Source of the DNA: a virus
DNA length: 63,352 nt
IMG/VR virus record: IMGVR_UViG_3300025326_000032
Coordinates: 1-63,352 of that record
Reading direction: 5' to 3' (one strand)
The position numbers and the translations under genes are program-made. A model generated the notes under the pieces. That model saw only the letters and a program-made list of their open reading frames with translations, was not told the origin of the DNA and did no database searches. Every line of letters begins with the position of its first letter. The stretch's first letter is position 1. Below are positions 4,836-61,758 of the stretch, piece after piece.

Positions 4836-6834
4836 ATTCTGGAGAGTTAAGAAATCTTATGACCGTAATGTAGAAATGCGTTATCTTCTTGATGGCTTAC
4901 ATAGTTTCATAACTATGATGGCTGACCAAGGAGATATTAAGGTTATGTGGTCTAGGGATTCAGTTCATATGTCTGGAGCCACTCCAGAGATTAAACTGAG
5001 TTACTTGCCTATTAATAATGCAGAGGCTCCATTTGAAGGTGATAGAGTAGATGCTATAGTAGGATTTGCTGCACATGAGGCTGGTCATAGACTCAGATCT
5101 AAAGATAATATACCTATTAATAATCATACTAATCCTTTTAATACTGGTAATCCTCTGAATCCTCTGAGTATATATCCTGTTCAGCCTATGCCTGATAGTG
5201 TATTTAAGCTTATTTCTAATTTGTTAGAGGATGTCTATATAGATAAGTATATGTATAGATACTCTCCTGTTCTAGTTAAGTATATTAAGTCAGGTAGACA
5301 ATGGGATTTAACTAGACCAGAGTATCAGCAACGTTGGGATGAGTTATGCGATAAGGCTAAGACAGGTCAGCTTGATAAAGTTGATATGCTTAATCTCTGG
5401 ATTCAGTATGAGTTATACGATAAGAATACAGCAGAGATACTAAAAGACTTTCCTCAAGAAGCGTTAGAGAATCTATTAAAGCTTGCAGAGATTACACAGG
5501 ATTATTGTGAACGGGCTGGTCTTGTTGATATAGATAAGCTGTTTACTACTATTTGGGATGAATTAAGCAATTATCCTGATCCAGATCTGGAGGATAAGAG
5601 TCAGCAAGATGAGCGAGAGTCAGAGTTTAGTGATAGTACTCTAAGTGGTACACCAGCTAGTTTCGGTAAGTCTGATTCATGTGAGGATGACACTGATGAT
5701 GAAGATGCTTTATCTGACTCAGATAACGAAAACGAGTCTAGCGAGTCTAGTGATAAGCAAGAATCTGAATTGGGTGCATCAGATGATAAAGGTAAAGAGG
5801 ATAGTGAGCAAGATGAGCTTGGTTTAGATAATGGAGACGAGGAGGAAAAAGAAAAGAATAGTGATAGCAGCGATAGTAAAAATAAGGAGACTGATCCATA
5901 TGAGGACTTACTAACATGTGTGCAGTCTAGTGAGCATGAAATACCGGAGAGTGTCTTAGAAGAATTTAGACAGGCAGTATCTCTTGATCGTGAAGATATA
6001 ACTCAAGACTTAAGGGATGAGCTAACTCAACAGTACCAACTACCTCAGCAAACCCACTCTGGTATTATCATGGAGAAGGCTGCTGAGACTGTAGTATTTC
6101 CTAAACCTGACGAAATGTCTAAACTAGTAAATCAATTATTTGAGTTTAGGCGTAGGCGTCATTCCAGATGGTCTAGAGGTACAGAGGACGGTAGACTATC
6201 TCAGTCTAGGCTACATAGAGCAGCTTACGATACCAATCATATACACGAACGTAAGGAGATTAAGGATAGTCTGAATCTAGGTGTATGCTTACTTGTAGAT
6301 GCTTCTAGTTCTGTGACTAAAAGTTGGCCCATCATAGAGAGAATAGTCGAAGCTCTGGCTTTAGGACTAGAACATAAGAAAGGTATTAAGATATGTGCTA
6401 TTGCTTATCAGTCTGTTTATGATAGGAGTAGTGGAGTTGGCAATGTACAGCTAACTCGTTTATATGAATCTGGTAATACTACTATTGGCAAGCATAAGTC
6501 TGATGGTAATACACCAACTGTTTCTGCATTACTAGCTACTCCTATGATTATGAATCGTTTGTTAGGGCATCCTAAAGATAAATTGATTATTCATGTGACT
6601 GACGGTGCTGCTGGTGATGAAGAAAGTATGAAATGTACTGTTAAAGAGGCTGTAGATATTATTCGTAAGAAGTATGGATTAGATATATACTGTTTTGGTA
6701 TAGGTGGTAGCTCGTACTTTGGTAATAGCGAAAAGTTCAAAATAGATTATAATACTAGTTATACTAATCTAGATACGTATGAGCAACTACCAGAAGCTTT
6801 AAAGAATCTACTCAGAGATATATTGGTAAGATGA
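4810..6834 (+). CDS. CobT-like protein: HEAGH domain, acidic middle, von Willebrand A domain
   Basis: 674 aa in three parts. Residues 80-100 hold HEAGH (89-93), a zinc-metallopeptidase-like helix. About 260-370 is very acidic and Ser-rich. The C-terminal vWA domain has a complete metal-ion-dependent adhesion site: DASSS at 497-501, DGNTPT at 565-570, and TDG near 598. Bacterial CobT, partner of CobS in the cobaltochelatase, has the same order with an acidic middle and C-terminal vWA. Together with the upstream AAA+ gene this is a MoxR/vWA-type pair. ATG 4822 is an alternative start. Protease activity is unproven. Confidence 0.8.
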   Translation: MGIHMSLSEFWRVKKSYDRNVEMRYLLDGLHSFITMMADQGDIKVMWSRDSVHMSGATPEIKLSYLPINNAEAPFEGDRVDAIVGFAAHEAGHRLRSKDNIPINNHTNPFNTGNPLNPLSIYPVQPMPDSVFKLISNLLEDVYIDKYMYRYSPVLVKYIKSGRQWDLTRPEYQQRWDELCDKAKTGQLDKVDMLNLWIQYELYDKNTAEILKDFPQEALENLLKLAEITQDYCERAGLVDIDKLFTTIWDELSNYPDPDLEDKSQQDERESEFSDSTLSGTPASFGKSDSCEDDTDDEDALSDSDNENESSESSDKQESELGASDDKGKEDSEQDELGLDNGDEEEKEKNSDSSDSKNKETDPYEDLLTCVQSSEHEIPESVLEEFRQAVSLDREDITQDLRDELTQQYQLPQQTHSGIIMEKAAETVVFPKPDEMSKLVNQLFEFRRRRHSRWSRGTEDGRLSQSRLHRAAYDTNHIHERKEIKDSLNLGVCLLVDASSSVTKSWPIIERIVEALALGLEHKKGIKICAIAYQSVYDRSSGVGNVQLTRLYESGNTTIGKHKSDGNTPTVSALLATPMIMNRLLGHPKDKLIIHVTDGAAGDEESMKCTVKEAVDIIRKKYGLDIYCFGIGGSSYFGNSEKFKIDYNTSYTNLDTYEQLPEALKNLLRDILVR

Positions 6835-7230
6835 ATGAAGTATCTAGATATCAAGAATTACTATCAATGTGAATTCTCAGGGATGCCACATAAATTTAAG
6901 AACTATCCAGTATATAGATTTAATGGGACTTCTTATAGTAATGTTGTTATCTGTCAGAAATGCTTTGCAGCCTTTGTGTTTCCAGGTATCGACATTACCA
7001 GAGCGCAAAACCTACTAGACGAAATACCAATGAGGCAATATGAGCTAAAACCATTATCTAAAGTACTACAGCATCAGGCTGCTATGAAAAAGATTGCGGA
7101 CATAACTAGAACTATATTATCTGGAAAGTGGGTGCAGGAAAGCATAGAGTTTGCAGAGGAGGCAGCAAGGATATCCAAGCAGGAGCGTAAAAAGCATAAG
7201 AAACAAAATATATGGAGGATGGCTAAATGA
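6835..7230 (+). CDS. Hypothetical protein, 131 aa, possible zinc site
   Basis: The start directly abuts the previous stop. Cysteines at about 12, 40 and 43 (CQKC) may bind zinc in the N-terminal half. The C-terminal half is helical and ends in a lysine/arginine-rich tail (KQERKKHKKQNIW), suggesting nucleic-acid contact. No family recognised. Confidence 0.6.
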   Translation: MKYLDIKNYYQCEFSGMPHKFKNYPVYRFNGTSYSNVVICQKCFAAFVFPGIDITRAQNLLDEIPMRQYELKPLSKVLQHQAAMKKIADITRTILSGKWVQESIEFAEEAARISKQERKKHKKQNIWRMAK

Positions 7231-14915: not shown

Positions 14916-15506
14916 ATGGCTACTCCAAGCGACAAGGTTCGGGAACTGGCAGAGCGCCTAGCAAAGCTTAGTCCTGAAGCTCAAGAGGAAGAGATAGCGC
15001 GGATAGACCGCAATGTCTCAAAGCGGGAAGCTAAGGCTCAGAAGGGAGTTCTAGAGGTACACAAAACAGAGATTGCCTCTGCATTCGTAGACACGCTGAA
15101 TCTCTACTGCCGTGAAAAAAAGATTGATGTTGCAACCGTATTGCCGCTGAATACACATATCGCAATGGCTGCAGACGGTAGTGGTATTACGGGCACAATC
15201 TCTGGTAAGCGTGGCAGTTCTGGTGGTGGAGGTGGGACTCGTTCGCCTAGTTTCTTCAAGCAGAAGGGCGTCAGTGCTATCAAGCTAAACGGTAAGTCCC
15301 TTGAGAAGGCTACTGAATCTGAGGTTCTGCGTGTTGCTCATGGTGTCAAGACAGCTAAGGAAGTCTATGGCACTGCATCCCCTCACGCCGTTGCATTACA
15401 GACCGAGAACCAAGAGAAGATTAAGAGTATGGGCTTCGTTGCTGTTCTTGAAGATGGCAGCGAGGTTCCGCTTATCAGTCTGTACAGTAACGGTAACGGT
15501 AGTTAA
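14916..15506 (+). CDS. Paralogue A of a two-copy phage protein family, 196 aa
   Basis: ATG 14916 has AGAGGAG upstream; the in-frame start at 14874 would be too close to the promoter. The N-terminal half is a charged coiled coil (VRELAERLAKLSPEAQEEE). The C-terminal half has the block SGKRG..GGGG..RSPS, then LNGK, then AKEVYGTASPHAV. The same block occurs in the 16128 protein. Monocistronic: own promoter and own strong terminator. The layout resembles nucleoid-protein-like organisation (oligomerisation helix plus a basic Gly-rich segment), but no known family is recognised. Probably abundant. Confidence 0.75.
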   Translation: MATPSDKVRELAERLAKLSPEAQEEEIARIDRNVSKREAKAQKGVLEVHKTEIASAFVDTLNLYCREKKIDVATVLPLNTHIAMAADGSGITGTISGKRGSSGGGGGTRSPSFFKQKGVSAIKLNGKSLEKATESEVLRVAHGVKTAKEVYGTASPHAVALQTENQEKIKSMGFVAVLEDGSEVPLISLYSNGNGS

Positions 15507-15540
15507 TCATCCAGCCATAGCCCGTTCCAGCTAGATAACA

Positions 15541-15579
15541 GAGACCCAGGGTTTTAGATAGCTCTGGGTCTCTTGTTTT
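15541..15579 (+). terminator. Rho-independent terminator
   Basis: GAGACCCAG and CTGGGTCTC form a 9-bp perfect stem with a 14-base loop, followed by TTGTTTT. It ends the single-gene transcript of the 14916 gene. Confidence 0.88.
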
Positions 15580-16048
15580 GCCCTTTAATCTGATATTAAC
15601 AGTTTTAGATTACTCAGCCTTATCAGTGGATTCAGATTCAGCCGAGGTTTAGGGCGTTCAGATATCAGATTGGGTGCAGATTTAAATTCAGATTTAGAAA
15701 TCTCAGTTAGAATTACCGTTTGTGAATTTTGTGTGAAGATTATAGGCTAACCTGAACACTGAAGCCCTTTAAATAGCTGCACCCAACTGAGAAATCTAAC
15801 CCTAATCTCACTACCTAAAAACATACCGAAGATATGATAAGGCGAACATGCGATTACATATTGTCCGTAGGACACTAACTCTGTTTAGAACATATGATTA
15901 TATCTAGATTTCGATATTGTGTACGCGCCTGAGCGCATAGCTTTTATGTTCTTTTTGAAGGCTAACCTCACTACAAAAGAGTCTAACTAGATAGTGTTTA
16001 GAACACCCTTCCGTAAAAAGATTCACGGAATAAACCGTCATTTAGGGA
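15580..16048. other. 470-base gene-free stretch with TCAGAT repeats
   Basis: No frame of note. TCAGAT occurs at 15632, 15658, 15665 and 15688, and GGGTGCAGATTT near 15673. The same words accompany the promoters at 2601 and 10584. CTGCACCC near 15777 is the reverse complement of GGGTGCAG. A regulatory or replication-related role is possible. Confidence 0.4.
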
Positions 16049-18154: not shown

Positions 18155-18351
18155 GGGATACCTTTTTTATGATTGATTGGGAAGACTAAGATACGGCTAG
18201 TCTCTGAGTGACAGTTTTTCAAATGTTCATCCATACTACCATATGAAATAGGTTGTTGACATCCCATACAGATAGTACAACAGTTAAGCTGGAATTGACT
18301 AGCACCAACTGGAAGATGCTCTAACTTAACACAAACATGTTCACAAGTCAT
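18151..18351 (-). CDS. Zinc-finger protein, 66 aa
   Basis: C-x2-H-x-C at the N-terminus, CTICMGC (26-32) and H-x4-C (43-48) are metal-binding patterns. First gene of the minus-strand operon, overlapping dcd by 4 bases. Function unknown. Confidence 0.55.
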   Translation of the reverse strand: MTCEHVCVKLEHLPVGASQFQLNCCTICMGCQQPISYGSMDEHLKNCHSETSRILVFPINHKKGIP

Positions 18352-18382
18352 AATTAGATAATAAACTGTGTCTGTATAAAAT

Positions 18383-18458
18383 GATAGAGGCTAGACTGTC
18401 GCCAAATCCAGCCTCTATCTCACCCATCCACAGTCTATCGCCTCAACAGATAGACTGT
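18383..18458 (-). promoter_or_regulatory. Two tandem perfect hairpins with competing pairing (leader switch candidate)
   Basis: Hairpin 1: GATAGAGGCT (18383-18392) with AGCCTCTATC (18410-18419). Hairpin 2: ACAGTCTATC (18430-18439) with GATAGACTGT (18449-18458). TAGACTGT at 18392-18399, mostly the loop of hairpin 1, can instead pair with ACAGTCTA of hairpin 2. Both lie in the 5' leader of the minus-strand operon if the promoter at 18494-18521 is used. Confidence 0.6.
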
Positions 18459-18477
18459 CCCAAGAAGGAGAACACCA

Positions 18478-18561
18478 ATGGCTCACCTATCTAAGCATAA
18501 CATACTTTCTATCTATGTCAAGGTTTTTAGATTTCCTCTTGACACATCGGCTATAATATGA
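18478..18561 (+). CDS. 27-aa frame, possible leader peptide
   Basis: AAGAAGGAG is well placed before ATG 18478; reads MAHLSKHNILSIYVKVFRF and onward, ending just before the terminase region. The frame overlaps divergent promoter sequence, so it may be fortuitous. Confidence 0.28.
   Translation: MAHLSKHNILSIYVKVFRFPLDTSAII
18494..18521 (-). promoter_or_regulatory. Minus-strand promoter for the dcd operon
   Basis: On the minus strand: TTGACA (18521-18516), 16-base spacer, TATGCT (18499-18494). The start codon at 18351 leaves a leader of about 135 bases containing both hairpins. Confidence 0.6.
18539..18557 (+). promoter_or_regulatory. Possible late promoter boxes
   Basis: TTGACA at 18539-18544 and TATAAT at 18552-18557 are only 7 bases apart, so they cannot form one standard promoter. 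TATAAT alone would start RNA near 18564, ten bases before the terminase ATG. This is the only plausible entry to the late operon seen nearby; a phage-specific promoter may be used. Confidence 0.35.
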
Positions 18562-49881: not shown

Positions 49882-50055
49882 GTGGCTAAACCTAAATCAG
49901 ACACCGTACAAGAACAAGAATTAAAGACTTTGACGAAACAGGTAATAGATTTACAAGATAGAACAGCTAAGTGGTATGGTGTGTTTTGTGCAGAGACTAA
50001 TGGATTTCTTATTGAGATAAACAGATTAATTAGACAAGTTAATAAGAAGGTTTAA
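49882..50055 (+). CDS. Coiled-coil protein, 57 aa (GTG start)
   Basis: Reads AKPKSDTVQEQELKTLTKQV and on through a Trp/Cys segment to a basic end. Ends 5 bases before structured RNA 50060-50180. No family. Confidence 0.5.
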   Translation: MAKPKSDTVQEQELKTLTKQVIDLQDRTAKWYGVFCAETNGFLIEINRLIRQVNKKV

Positions 50056-50059
50056 TTCT

Positions 50060-50180
50060 TCTATGCAGGACAGAAGAAAGGAATAGGCTAGATACTTCGT
50101 GGTGGATACTAAGATGAGTAAGGTCTGTTTGGATATGTTGCCGCACCCCCGATAACATATATATATCTGTCCTGCATAGA
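50060..50180 (+). ncRNA. Structured RNA candidate 1 (15-bp closing helix)
   Basis: TCTATGCAGGACAGA (50060-50074) pairs perfectly with TCTGTCCTGCATAGA (50166-50180). Inside, ATATGTT/AACATAT (50133-50160) forms a 7-bp hairpin with a C-rich 14-base loop. The remaining 58 bases contain TAGATACTTCG and GGATACTAAGATG. No frame spans it and no T-run follows, so this is not a simple terminator. Confidence 0.6.
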
Positions 50181-50191
50181 GTGATTAAGCT

Positions 50192-51711: not shown

Positions 51712-51818
51712 GTTGTACTTTATGTAAGGCAGGGTTTAAATTACCACATGGTCATATATATAGCCTAGAAGAATTTCAAGATATCCTGAAGCGTATTGTA
51801 CAAGAAAATAAGAAGTAA
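51708..51818 (+). CDS. 36-aa CxxC peptide
   Basis: MSCTLCKAGFKLPHGHIYSL then a short helix. Third member of an overlapping micro-gene string ending 12 bases before structured RNA 51830. Confidence 0.5.
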   Translation: MSCTLCKAGFKLPHGHIYSLEEFQDILKRIVQENKK

Positions 51819-51829
51819 AACTTGAGTGT

Positions 51830-51983
51830 CTTAGAGTGCAGAGAGGCTGCACTTGGGAGTGACAGGAAGTAACCTGTTGCTGCAAGAGCACAGAGAGAAC
51901 AACAAAATAGTCTTCATGGGCGCGAAGTATATAACAGTAACAGCTCCAACTCCAATTAAGGGTGATCCTCTCTGTGCTCTAAG
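51830..51983 (+). ncRNA. Structured RNA candidate 2 with two alternative folds
   Basis: CTTAGAGTGCAGAGAGG (51830-51846) pairs over 17 bp (two wobbles) with CCTCTCTGTGCTCTAAG (51967-51983). A second copy, AGAGCACAGAGAG (51885-51897), is a perfect 13-bp partner for the same 3' arm. If that forms, the first arm can fold locally as AGTGCAG/CTGCACT (51835-51853). ACAGG/CCTGT forms another hairpin near 51862-51877. The competing arms suggest a switch or a processed RNA. Confidence 0.6.
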
Positions 51984-52004
51984 ATATTCGAGTAACTGAC
52001 ATAG

Positions 52005-52033
52005 TTGACAAATATAGGATATTAGTTTAAAAT
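52005..52033 (+). promoter_or_regulatory. Promoter for the lysis genes
   Basis: TTGACA 52005-52010, 17-base spacer, TAAAAT 52028-52033. The endolysin ATG is 53 bases downstream. Confidence 0.75.
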
Positions 52034-52085
52034 AATGTTCAATGTATGTTACACATCCAGAATAGCTTAAGTGATAGGTAGACTT

Positions 52086-59346: not shown

Positions 59347-59375
59347 TTGACATTCATTCAGTCATGTGTTATAGT
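59347..59375 (+). promoter_or_regulatory. Promoter for the Sak4-like gene
   Basis: TTGACA 59347-59352, 17-base spacer containing ATTCAG, TATAGT 59370-59375. Same TCAG spacer element as 2601, 10584 and 14822. Confidence 0.8.
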
Positions 59376-59404: not shown

Positions 59405-60235
59405 TTGGCACCACGAGAGCGTGTTCTAATAGGTGGAGAGTCAGGCTCAGGGAAAACATATGCTTGGCTATCTATTGCACGTTATAATCCTCAGTCTCAA
59501 TTCTATGTGGCAGAAGCTGATGATGGTGTTACTAAAGTTCTATCTTTAGAATATCCTGATGTATTAGCCAATGGTAATGTACATGGAGTTAGAAACGAGA
59601 ATGGTATCTGGCAACCTCCTGACTTAATTCAAGAATGGGTTGACTTTAGGCACTTCGTAGAAACCCTTAAAGAATTCAAAGAATCTGGTCAGCTCCAAGA
59701 ATCTGACTGGATTATTGTTGAGGGTATAGACTTAATTAAGAATACTATTACTTATAACTATATAGATAAAGTATATAAGATAGATCGTAAGACTAAACGA
59801 GCTATTACAGATCCTTGGGATGCTATTATAGCTCAACGTTCTAGAGGTTCACCAATACTTGATCCTTCTGATCGTGATGCTATTAACTCTGAGTATGAGG
59901 CACAGTTAACTTGGCCTGCATATATATCTCAGTGTAATCTAGTAGGTACAGCTGCCATATCTCGTATCAATTTTGATTCTGATTATGCTGATAAAGGTGT
60001 TAAAGAGTATTATGCTTCTCTAGGTACACCACTAAGGATAGATGGACACAAACGTAGCCCTAGAATGTTTGATACTCTAATATATCTTTTTGCAGGCAAT
60101 ACATACCAGATGCAGATTCTTAAGGATAGAGGCATAGGTCGTCAGATATCCCTAGTGGATACTGGTGAGTTTTATCTCTCTTTGGAAAAGTTTAGAACTA
60201 CTACTATGTCAGCTAGAAGTCTAGGAGTATCTTAA
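59405..60235 (+). CDS. Sak4-like/AAA_24 ATPase (recombinase)
   Basis: 276 aa, TTG start with TAAGGAG. Walker A GGESGSGKTY (9-18), Walker B DWIIVEGIDLI, and the RecA-like core typical of phage AAA_24/Sak4 single-strand annealing or strand-exchange proteins. With the Cas4-like nuclease and SSB-like protein it forms a recombination module. Confidence 0.8.
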   Translation: MAPRERVLIGGESGSGKTYAWLSIARYNPQSQFYVAEADDGVTKVLSLEYPDVLANGNVHGVRNENGIWQPPDLIQEWVDFRHFVETLKEFKESGQLQESDWIIVEGIDLIKNTITYNYIDKVYKIDRKTKRAITDPWDAIIAQRSRGSPILDPSDRDAINSEYEAQLTWPAYISQCNLVGTAAISRINFDSDYADKGVKEYYASLGTPLRIDGHKRSPRMFDTLIYLFAGNTYQMQILKDRGIGRQISLVDTGEFYLSLEKFRTTTMSARSLGVS

Positions 60236-60394
60236 GTGACTAAATGTGTATTTTCTAAAGCATGGGCAAAACTTAAAATTGGTTTAGAGGATAAGACTTC
60301 ATGGGGAAAGACCGAACTCAAAAATCTTATGTTTATATGTTTAGAAAATGCAGCACTAGAAGACGACAATGAAAGGCATGGGAATGATGACTAA
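60236..60394 (+). CDS. Small protein, 52 aa (GTG start)
   Basis: Directly abuts the previous stop. Reads TKCVFSKAWAKLKIGLEDKT and on, acidic end. Stops 2 bases before structured RNA 60397. No family. Confidence 0.5.
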   Translation: MTKCVFSKAWAKLKIGLEDKTSWGKTELKNLMFICLENAALEDDNERHGNDD

Positions 60395-60396
60395 TT

Positions 60397-60676
60397 AAAA
60401 CTATTATAGAGTCTACTCAGAACGGTAGATCAGGATGCGCTGTCTGAATATTATGTTTTTCCTCGCTTTCTCCTGTATTTAGGCAGCAATATTACGCTCA
60501 CCGTCTCCTGTGCGCCTGAGCAGTCTAGGTCTTTTGCTGGATACTAGGCTTGACTGATGAGATTACTAATTAAATTCTTATTAGTCAGTAATGGAGGGTC
60601 TAGGAATTGTCCTCCCACAGTTTCTAGCAGCGAAATTAGTAATAGCTGAATTCTGGGTAGACTCTACGATAGTTTT
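60397..60676 (+). ncRNA. Structured RNA candidate 3: 26-bp closing helix, five hairpins, pseudoknot
   Basis: 60397-60422 pairs with 60651-60676 over 25 of 26 positions (two wobbles, one A-C mismatch). Inside, in order: GCTGTCTGAA/TTTAGGCAGC (60439-60487), GCTCA/TGAGC (60496-60521), GTCTAG/CTAGGC (60523-60549), TTGACTGATGAG/CTTATTAGTCAG (60550-60588) and GGAGG/CCTCC (60593-60615). The loop of the fourth, ATTACTAATT (60562-60571), pairs with AATTAGTAAT (60634-60643), making a pseudoknot. No coding frame explains it. Not a known RNA family I can name. Confidence 0.72.
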
Positions 60677-60702
60677 ATTTAAGCTGAGTTTGGAATGTAA
60701 GA

Positions 60703-61071
60703 ATGGGATTAGTAAGAACAAAGATATTAGCATTACCTAGACCATTAGAACAAACACTAACAGATATCGCAAAGGATTTAAATGTCAGTAGACAGTATGT
60801 TCATCAGATAGTAACTACTGAAAGAATATCTCAATATAGGCGTAAACGACCGTTATGTAAAGGTTGTGGAAAGAATGAAGCTAACGGATATAAAAGACGA
60901 TATTGCCCTGACTGTATAAGTCAGGATTTGCATAATAAGAACAAACGGACTGGTAAAGAATTTAAGTGCTATAGGTGTGGTATAATGGTTTATAGAAAGC
61001 CTTCTCACATTAAACGTATGAAACCAAATGGTAAATCTTATTGCTATGACTGTTATATGTTTAATCGCTAG
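60703..61071 (+). CDS. HTH and zinc-finger protein, 122 aa
   Basis: Residues about 15-40 (LEQTLTDIAKDLNVSRQYVH) form a sigma region 4-like HTH. Then three CxxC pairs (CKGC, CPDC, CYRC) and a last C-x2-C. A DNA-binding regulator. The structured RNA lies just upstream and may control it. Confidence 0.65.
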   Translation: MGLVRTKILALPRPLEQTLTDIAKDLNVSRQYVHQIVTTERISQYRRKRPLCKGCGKNEANGYKRRYCPDCISQDLHNKNKRTGKEFKCYRCGIMVYRKPSHIKRMKPNGKSYCYDCYMFNR

Positions 61072-61074
61072 ATA

Positions 61075-61758
61075 ATGGATATTCTAATCTCTCCAACTGA
61101 GCCCTACGAAATAAAGTCAGACTTTGGTGAATATGGTATATCTGCTCCTCACTTACCATCAGATTATGGTTGGTATGTAAAGGGTAAACGAAGTCTGGTT
61201 CAACGTAAGCATATTCCAGGTGATATGTTAGCTTCAATACAAGATGGACGATTTCAGCGAGATATGCAGATCCTACTTGAGAATATAGAACAAGGCGGTA
61301 GGAGTTATCTACTGCAAGAAGGTCATTGGTCTTGTGATAAACAGGGTATGATTCTTAATCCTACAAGACCGTCAGGATGGAGTTATGAAAAGATATCAGA
61401 ACTACTATCTACTGTACAAGAAATGGGTATAGAATTACTTATAAGTCCTGATATTAGTATGACTGCATTAGTTATTATCAGTCAAGTTAGATGGGAGCTT
61501 AAAGAAGATCATTCAAGCCTTTCACGCAGACCAGGATTAGTAGCCGAATGGGGTAAGCCTAGTTATGCTTCTTATACTATATGGTCTTACCAAGGTATTC
61601 CAGGTGTAGGTGCAGATATAGCTGAGATACTATTTAAGTCAGCTCCTACATGGGAGAAGCTAGTAGATATGAATATAGCTGAATTTCAGGAGCTAAAGCA
61701 TTTCGGGAAAAAGCGAGCAGAGCGTGTATATAACTTTATACATAAGGGGAAGTTATGA
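61075..61758 (+). CDS. ERCC4/XPF-type nuclease with helix-hairpin-helix
   Basis: 227 aa. YVKGKRSLVQRKHIPGDMLA and SIQDGRFQRDMQILLE match the ERCC4 nuclease domain (V.RK...D...SI.DGR). The C-terminal IPGVGADIAEILF...ELKHFGKKRAERVY is a double HhH DNA-binding region. Cuts branched DNA; likely a phage recombination or packaging resolvase. Confidence 0.8.
   Translation: MDILISPTEPYEIKSDFGEYGISAPHLPSDYGWYVKGKRSLVQRKHIPGDMLASIQDGRFQRDMQILLENIEQGGRSYLLQEGHWSCDKQGMILNPTRPSGWSYEKISELLSTVQEMGIELLISPDISMTALVIISQVRWELKEDHSSLSRRPGLVAEWGKPSYASYTIWSYQGIPGVGADIAEILFKSAPTWEKLVDMNIAEFQELKHFGKKRAERVYNFIHKGKL

Follow-up and report, generated by a model that had tools for sequence, protein, structure and literature searches.

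A conserved clamped RNA with a kissing-loop contact upstream of an HTH/zinc-ribbon gene in environmental bacteriophages, and two companion RNAs of similar design

Genes and features at the locus

The window, a stretch of viral DNA 63,352 nucleotides long (positions 1 to 63,352 of IMG/VR record IMGVR_UViG_3300025326_000032), carries on its + strand a structured RNA, here called RNA-1, in the gap between a small ORF and an HTH/zinc-ribbon gene; a Sak4-like gene lies upstream and a helix-hairpin-helix gene follows downstream (Table 1). The annotations of these neighbouring proteins are partly based on weak profile matches, and the HTH protein could not be identified from its AlphaFold model, which is too poor (pLDDT 66.5) and has no PDB match at E ≤ 0.001. 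A retron ncRNA finds no support in the adjoining genes (Sak4-like, small ORF, HTH/zinc and HhH/ERCC4-like), none of which is a reverse transcriptase. Consensus scans of the + strand from the Sak4 promoter to the start of the HTH gene predicted no promoter-like or terminator-like site, and on that basis RNA-1 is probably embedded in an operon transcript. Similar promoter hexamers are found upstream of Sak4 in two related phage contigs, L002 and L008.

Table 1. Features of the RNA-1 locus and companion RNAs, in window coordinates
Feature	Position	Strand	Evidence or remark
RNA-2	50049-50191	+	26-position closing helix; z −6.5; no Rfam match; first flagged by a weak model match
RNA-3	51820-51993	+	27-position clamp; 51800-52080 folds at z −5.3
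Sigma-70-like promoter TTGACA-17-TATAGT, 5′ of Sak4-like gene	59347-59375	+	Prediction from consensus scan
Sak4-like/AAA ATPase gene	59405-60235	+	PHROG 124 at E 0.0022 only; Pfam AAA_24 under cut-off
Small ORF	60236-60394	+	Stop codon overlaps first bases of the RNA clamp
RNA-1, entire, with full closing helix	60392-60681	+	Inverted repeat scan; fold z −6.8 for 60397-60676; covariance-model match
P1 5′ strand (closing helix)	60392-60422	+	Two-sided changes in 16/26 aligned pairs, four members
P1 3′ strand (closing helix)	60651-60681	+	Pairs with 60392-60422
P2 5′ strand ACGGT	60422-60426	+	Partner 60500-60504 (ACCGT); near-invariant sequence
PK-A 5′ strand TCAGG (candidate pseudoknot)	60430-60434	+	Partner 60515-60519 (CCTGA)
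P2b, variable hairpin within P2 loop	60435-60499	+	~25-65 nt depending on member
P3 5′ strand CTCC	60505-60508	+	Partner 60593-60596 (GGAG); four-pair helix around P4 and P5
Strongly conserved stretch TGTGCGCCTGAGCAG; family form TGTGYRCCTGRGCAG	60509-60523	+	
Hairpin P4	60523-60549	+	Two-sided changes in 5/10 pairs
Hairpin P5, loop with kissing strand 60562-60571	60550-60588	+	Two-sided changes in 5/13 pairs
Kissing-loop strand 1 ATTACTAATT, P5 loop	60562-60571	+	
Conserved GTAATGGAG	60588-60596	+	Last four bases are the P3 strand
Hairpin P6 (CTAGGAA/TTTCTAG)	60600-60627	+	Two-sided changes in 3/4 counted pairs
Hairpin P7 (CAGC/GCTG, 60628-60631/60645-60648), loop with kissing strand 2	60628-60648	+	
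Kissing-loop strand 2 AATTAGTAAT, P7 loop	60634-60643	+	
HTH/zinc-ribbon gene	60703-61071	+	Next after the RNA in 4/4 phages; weak AlphaFold model
Helix-hairpin-helix gene, borderline ERCC4 nuclease	61075-61758	+	HHH_5 above cut-off; ERCC4 23.7 bits vs cut-off 24

Fold of RNA-1

RNAfold assigned the + strand of 60397-60676 a free energy of −103.5 kcal/mol (z −6.79), which none of 200 dinucleotide shuffles equalled or bettered, as expected from the claim in a preliminary description of this DNA that chance would not build such a fold; the opposite strand of the same interval folds more weakly (z −4.0). The closing helix that had been drawn there at 60397-60422/60651-60676 exists, but its true extent is greater, P1 in the window spanning 31 positions with two mismatches. 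The hairpins fall where that description had placed them, while P3 and PK-A had escaped it, as had two more similar RNAs 9-10 kb upstream. In the junction, the segments ACGGUANAYCAGG, UGUGYRCCUGRGCAG and GUAAUGGAG are conserved with near-invariant bases. Two further helices proposed by RNAalifold (alignment A9, described below, columns 46-50/108-112 and 124-126/133-135) were dropped as weak or clashing with PK-A, and a small ORF beginning in GTAATGGAG was set aside because it is not conserved, with at most 6 codons in two members, about 20 in the third and about 58 in the fourth.

Homologues and comparison with known RNAs

Searched at the protein level, the HTH/zinc ORF led to a single viral contig, L002, whose genes follow the same order and whose small ORF and HTH gene flank a homologous RNA (L002:4701-5000, z −4.8). 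L005 and L008 were then recovered with profiles of the Sak4-like and HhH/ERCC4-like proteins, and in each the RNA lies immediately 5′ of the HTH gene (L008:4339-4570 folds at z −6.9). RNA-1 thus has four members, all 230-290 bases long, intergenic, and carried by bacteriophages known solely from environmental DNA, and the location before an HTH/zinc gene, already recorded for the window, is the same in every one. Even in L005, where Sak4 and the RNA are about 2.4 kb apart with unrelated ORFs in between, the RNA and the HTH gene are adjacent. A covariance model matched the window at 60388-60689 with 230.6 bits.

Scanning 2.9 million viral contigs, in collections that exclude the window record itself, with two looser DNA patterns yielded nothing beyond L002, L005 and L008. 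Among 84,980 prokaryote species genomes a pattern scan picked out four loci (L016-L019), none with a covariance-model match, and 50,697 records of isolated phages, searched at both nucleotide and protein level, contained no match to the RNA or to the Sak4-like or HhH/ERCC4-like protein. Also rejected were L003, a chance match to the pattern CACCGTCTCCTGTGCGCC inside an integrase-like gene, and L014 and L015, which matched the HTH profile and are without the RNA. In L002, the small ORF 5′ of the RNA (L002:4418-4692) has an apparent frameshift relative to L008, with its CxxC...LIYRC segment going on in another frame, and the Cas4-like gene (L002:1729-3498) encodes 589 aa, where relatives have 312-320 aa, and contains an intein-like insertion. 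Nearby, at 5388-5741 and 6473-6961, are HNH-type ORFs.

Rfam 15, searched at gathering and relaxed (E up to 5) thresholds, contains no family to which the window copy or either of two homologues can be assigned; the best matches, a snoRNA (E 2) and Yfr20 (E 0.53), are at chance level and far under the gathering score. The group I and group II intron models were likewise unmatched, in keeping with the first reading of this sequence, which had recognised neither a known family nor a group I intron. In the cobalamin riboswitch (RF00174) a helix encloses hairpins and an inner hairpin loop kisses the last hairpin. The topology of RNA-1 is similar on paper and the phage encodes a class II-like ribonucleotide reductase, but the conserved sequences of RF00174 are unlike those of RNA-1, for which the relaxed Rfam search gave no such match.

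Known structured phage RNAs are few, and most are without known function. GOLLD and ROOL, encoded by phages and prophages, are ornate RNAs of this kind whose folds include kissing loops and pseudoknots (PMC12286853). RNA-1 is likewise phage-encoded and pseudoknotted with a kissing loop, but GOLLD and ROOL are larger (GOLLD often >800 nt), often lie by tRNA islands and form multimers (PMC12286853), and their Rfam models do not match RNA-1. The manA and wcaG motifs are also structured RNAs found in phages near protein genes, but these come mostly from marine metagenomes and T4-like cyanophages and lie near metabolic genes (PMC2864571), whereas RNA-1 is without an Rfam match. RNA-1 was not described in the open-access literature that we searched. 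It is a new, uncatalogued family within a known kind, the structured phage RNAs of unknown function.

Covariation and strand

We measured covariation as counts of pairs changed on both sides, with shuffled and slid controls, in two alignments: A5, a MAFFT alignment made from sequence only with its RNAalifold structure, and A9, a model alignment into which the two pseudoknots were written. In A9, 35 of 77 pairs show a two-sided change in some member and 98.0% of cells are paired, as compared with 1-5 such pairs in the slid controls. Because A9 favours the structure, the A5 figures are reported alongside: 33 of 76 pairs with two-sided changes and 98.3% of cells paired, falling to 2-5 pairs and about 40% paired when partners were slid by 1-3 columns. 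The covarying pairs in A9 are distributed over P1 (16), P4 (5), P5 (5), P6 (3) and P7 (1), and two-sided changes also occur in the kissing loop and in one PK-A pair. P2 and P3 are nearly invariant, and their support therefore comes only from folding and consensus placement.

Since pairs are kept through base changes in relatives, the shape has been preserved by evolution, and the conserved, non-random structure of RNA-1 is well supported. Neither a folding energy at the level of shuffled sequence nor homologues lacking covariation, the two outcomes named beforehand as counting against the structure, was found. In the alignment the RNAalifold helices comprise 256 Watson-Crick, 40 G-U and 2 A-C cells. 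The excess of G-U over A-C bears out the suggestion that the wobbles mark an RNA, and identifies the + strand RNA, rather than a DNA palindrome, as the constrained molecule.

Loop-loop contact and a second possible pseudoknot

The 10-bp pairing of 60562-60571 with 60634-60643 that had been proposed earlier is exact, but what was then called a downstream strand is the loop of hairpin P7, so the pairing is a kissing-loop contact. The P5 and P7 loops pair in all four members with different sequences: TTACTAATT/AATTAGTAA in the window, TTCATCTT/AAGATGGA in L002, ATTCATTC/GGATGAAT in L008 and CTGTA/TACAG in L005. None of 20,000 loop shuffles attained the summed kissing score. In A9, four of the six column pairs of the contact covary and 82.6% of cells are paired, an underestimate because the window copy is offset by one gap column in that alignment. 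PK-A (60430-60434, UCAGG, with 60515-60519, CCUGA) is moderately supported as a second possible pseudoknot, by a single compensatory change from U-A to C-G in L005.

Companion clamped RNAs

Inverted repeats scoring at least 15 in the 63-kb window are exactly three, RNA-1, RNA-2 and RNA-3 (scores 19.3-23.0), and the top score in eight block-shuffled copies of the window was 16.1. The arms of the three are mutually unrelated in sequence. RNA-2 comes after the class II-like ribonucleotide reductase region and before a methyltransferase-like gene, and equivalents follow the reductase gene in all three relatives (L040:475-585, L041:187-318 and L042:181-303), where the arms differ yet pair and a C-rich GCYGCACCCC-like loop is held in common. 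The gene downstream of RNA-2 varies between phages, so at the least RNA-2 is not bound to one downstream gene. RNA-3 is placed between a small ORF and an ORF at 52071; L051:76-226 (z −6.3) may be a relative of it, a hairpin being common to both (GACAGG/CCTGTT versus GATAGG/CCTATC).

The clamps are of similar length: 28-31 positions in the four copies of RNA-1, 26-28 in RNA-2 of four phages and 27 in RNA-3. In nine of nine cases the clamp starts between −9 and +4 nt from the preceding stop codon, and in eight of the nine the next ORF lies 1-35 nt past the clamp end. Since the clamp ends lie close to the stop and mostly to the next start, these RNAs occupy intercistronic gaps.

A proposed mechanism and its alternatives

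We propose the following for RNA-1. A transcript would begin 5′ of the Sak4-like gene and span the small ORF, RNA-1 and the HTH/zinc gene. Within it RNA-1 would fold into a closed domain comprising the P1 clamp, a core of P2, P3 and probably PK-A, and hairpins P4-P7 joined by the P5-P7 kissing contact. The P1 clamp would then be cleaved by a host nuclease specific for double strands, with RNase III the likeliest candidate, parting the upstream from the downstream message and freeing RNA-1. Once free, RNA-1 would work in trans, its conserved junction most likely serving to bind a protein or a second RNA. We rate this reading, an operon-embedded RNA released by RNase III and acting in trans, at about even odds.

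Two features of the RNAs bear on the cleavage step. First, the sequence of P1 has been replaced while pairing persists, as for a duplex recognised by its shape. Second, because clamp pairing and length (26-31) persist as sequences drift, and because unrelated RNAs share the design, a double-strand nuclease such as RNase III would be the simplest common cause. RNase III favours duplexes of about two helical turns, and in the early mRNA of phage T7 its intercistronic processing sites are long duplexes between genes of a polycistronic transcript. The T7 sites are simple hairpins, whereas the RNA-1 duplex closes a conserved domain of about 170-230 nt and its cleavage is putative. The conserved core and kissing loop point to a rigid RNA with some binding partner.

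The main alternative is that RNA-1 might act in cis as the leader of the HTH/zinc gene, its core bound either by that gene's own product, which is of a nucleic-acid-binding type, or by another ligand, so that translation or stability of the message is controlled. The adjacency of RNA and HTH gene is strict in all four phages, the RNA ends 15-35 nt from the HTH start codon, and both are retained together in L005 despite the broken Sak4 link, a pattern that cis control accounts for no less well than trans action does. However, a closing helix of 28-31 positions would be hard to switch, no alternative pairing appears in the folds that would sequester the ribosome-binding site, and RNA-2, of similar design, has no constant downstream gene. 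We regard cis control as possible but doubtful. A new class of metabolite riboswitch or self-cleaving ribozyme, with the junction as pocket or active site, is improbable: the near-invariant junction bases and the compact, pseudoknotted architecture would suit it, but the Rfam riboswitch and ribozyme families are unmatched, the prediction scan shows no terminator-like expression platform and the downstream genes are non-metabolic. A DNA element, whether a miniature inverted-repeat transposon (MITE) or a cruciform where replication or recombination takes place, is very improbable even with a long inverted repeat adjoining recombination-type genes, since DNA-level repeats would lack the strand-biased wobbles on which we rejected the palindrome and MITE readings, the arms are compensated rather than decayed and unrelated among the three RNAs, and the loop-loop covariation has no explanation at the DNA level.

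Extending the proposed release of RNA-1 by RNase III to its companions, we tentatively suggest that these phages carry several different noncoding RNAs, with clamps of ~25-31 bp and stop-to-start placement, all excised by one nuclease; we hold this wider scheme to be unlikely rather than probable. If true, it would be a modular means for a phage to ship multiple trans-acting RNAs within its operons, and if the clamps are processing signals, a long inverted repeat beginning at a stop codon would be a rule by which to find more phage RNAs. With four members, a supported fold that includes a loop-loop contact, a fixed neighbour and companion RNAs in the same genomes, RNA-1 is directly testable.

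Other structured stretches

Structured stretches elsewhere in the window were surveyed by a regression scan and an intergenic scan. Two intergenic stretches on the minus strand, 15487-15736 and 18330-18560, beat shuffled sequence with z −5.5 and −4.5, respectively. Contig L051 (IMGVR_UViG_3300025119_000015) carries a long inverted repeat at 257-363, 3′ of a methyltransferase-like gene, with 27-position arms and a score of 20.3.
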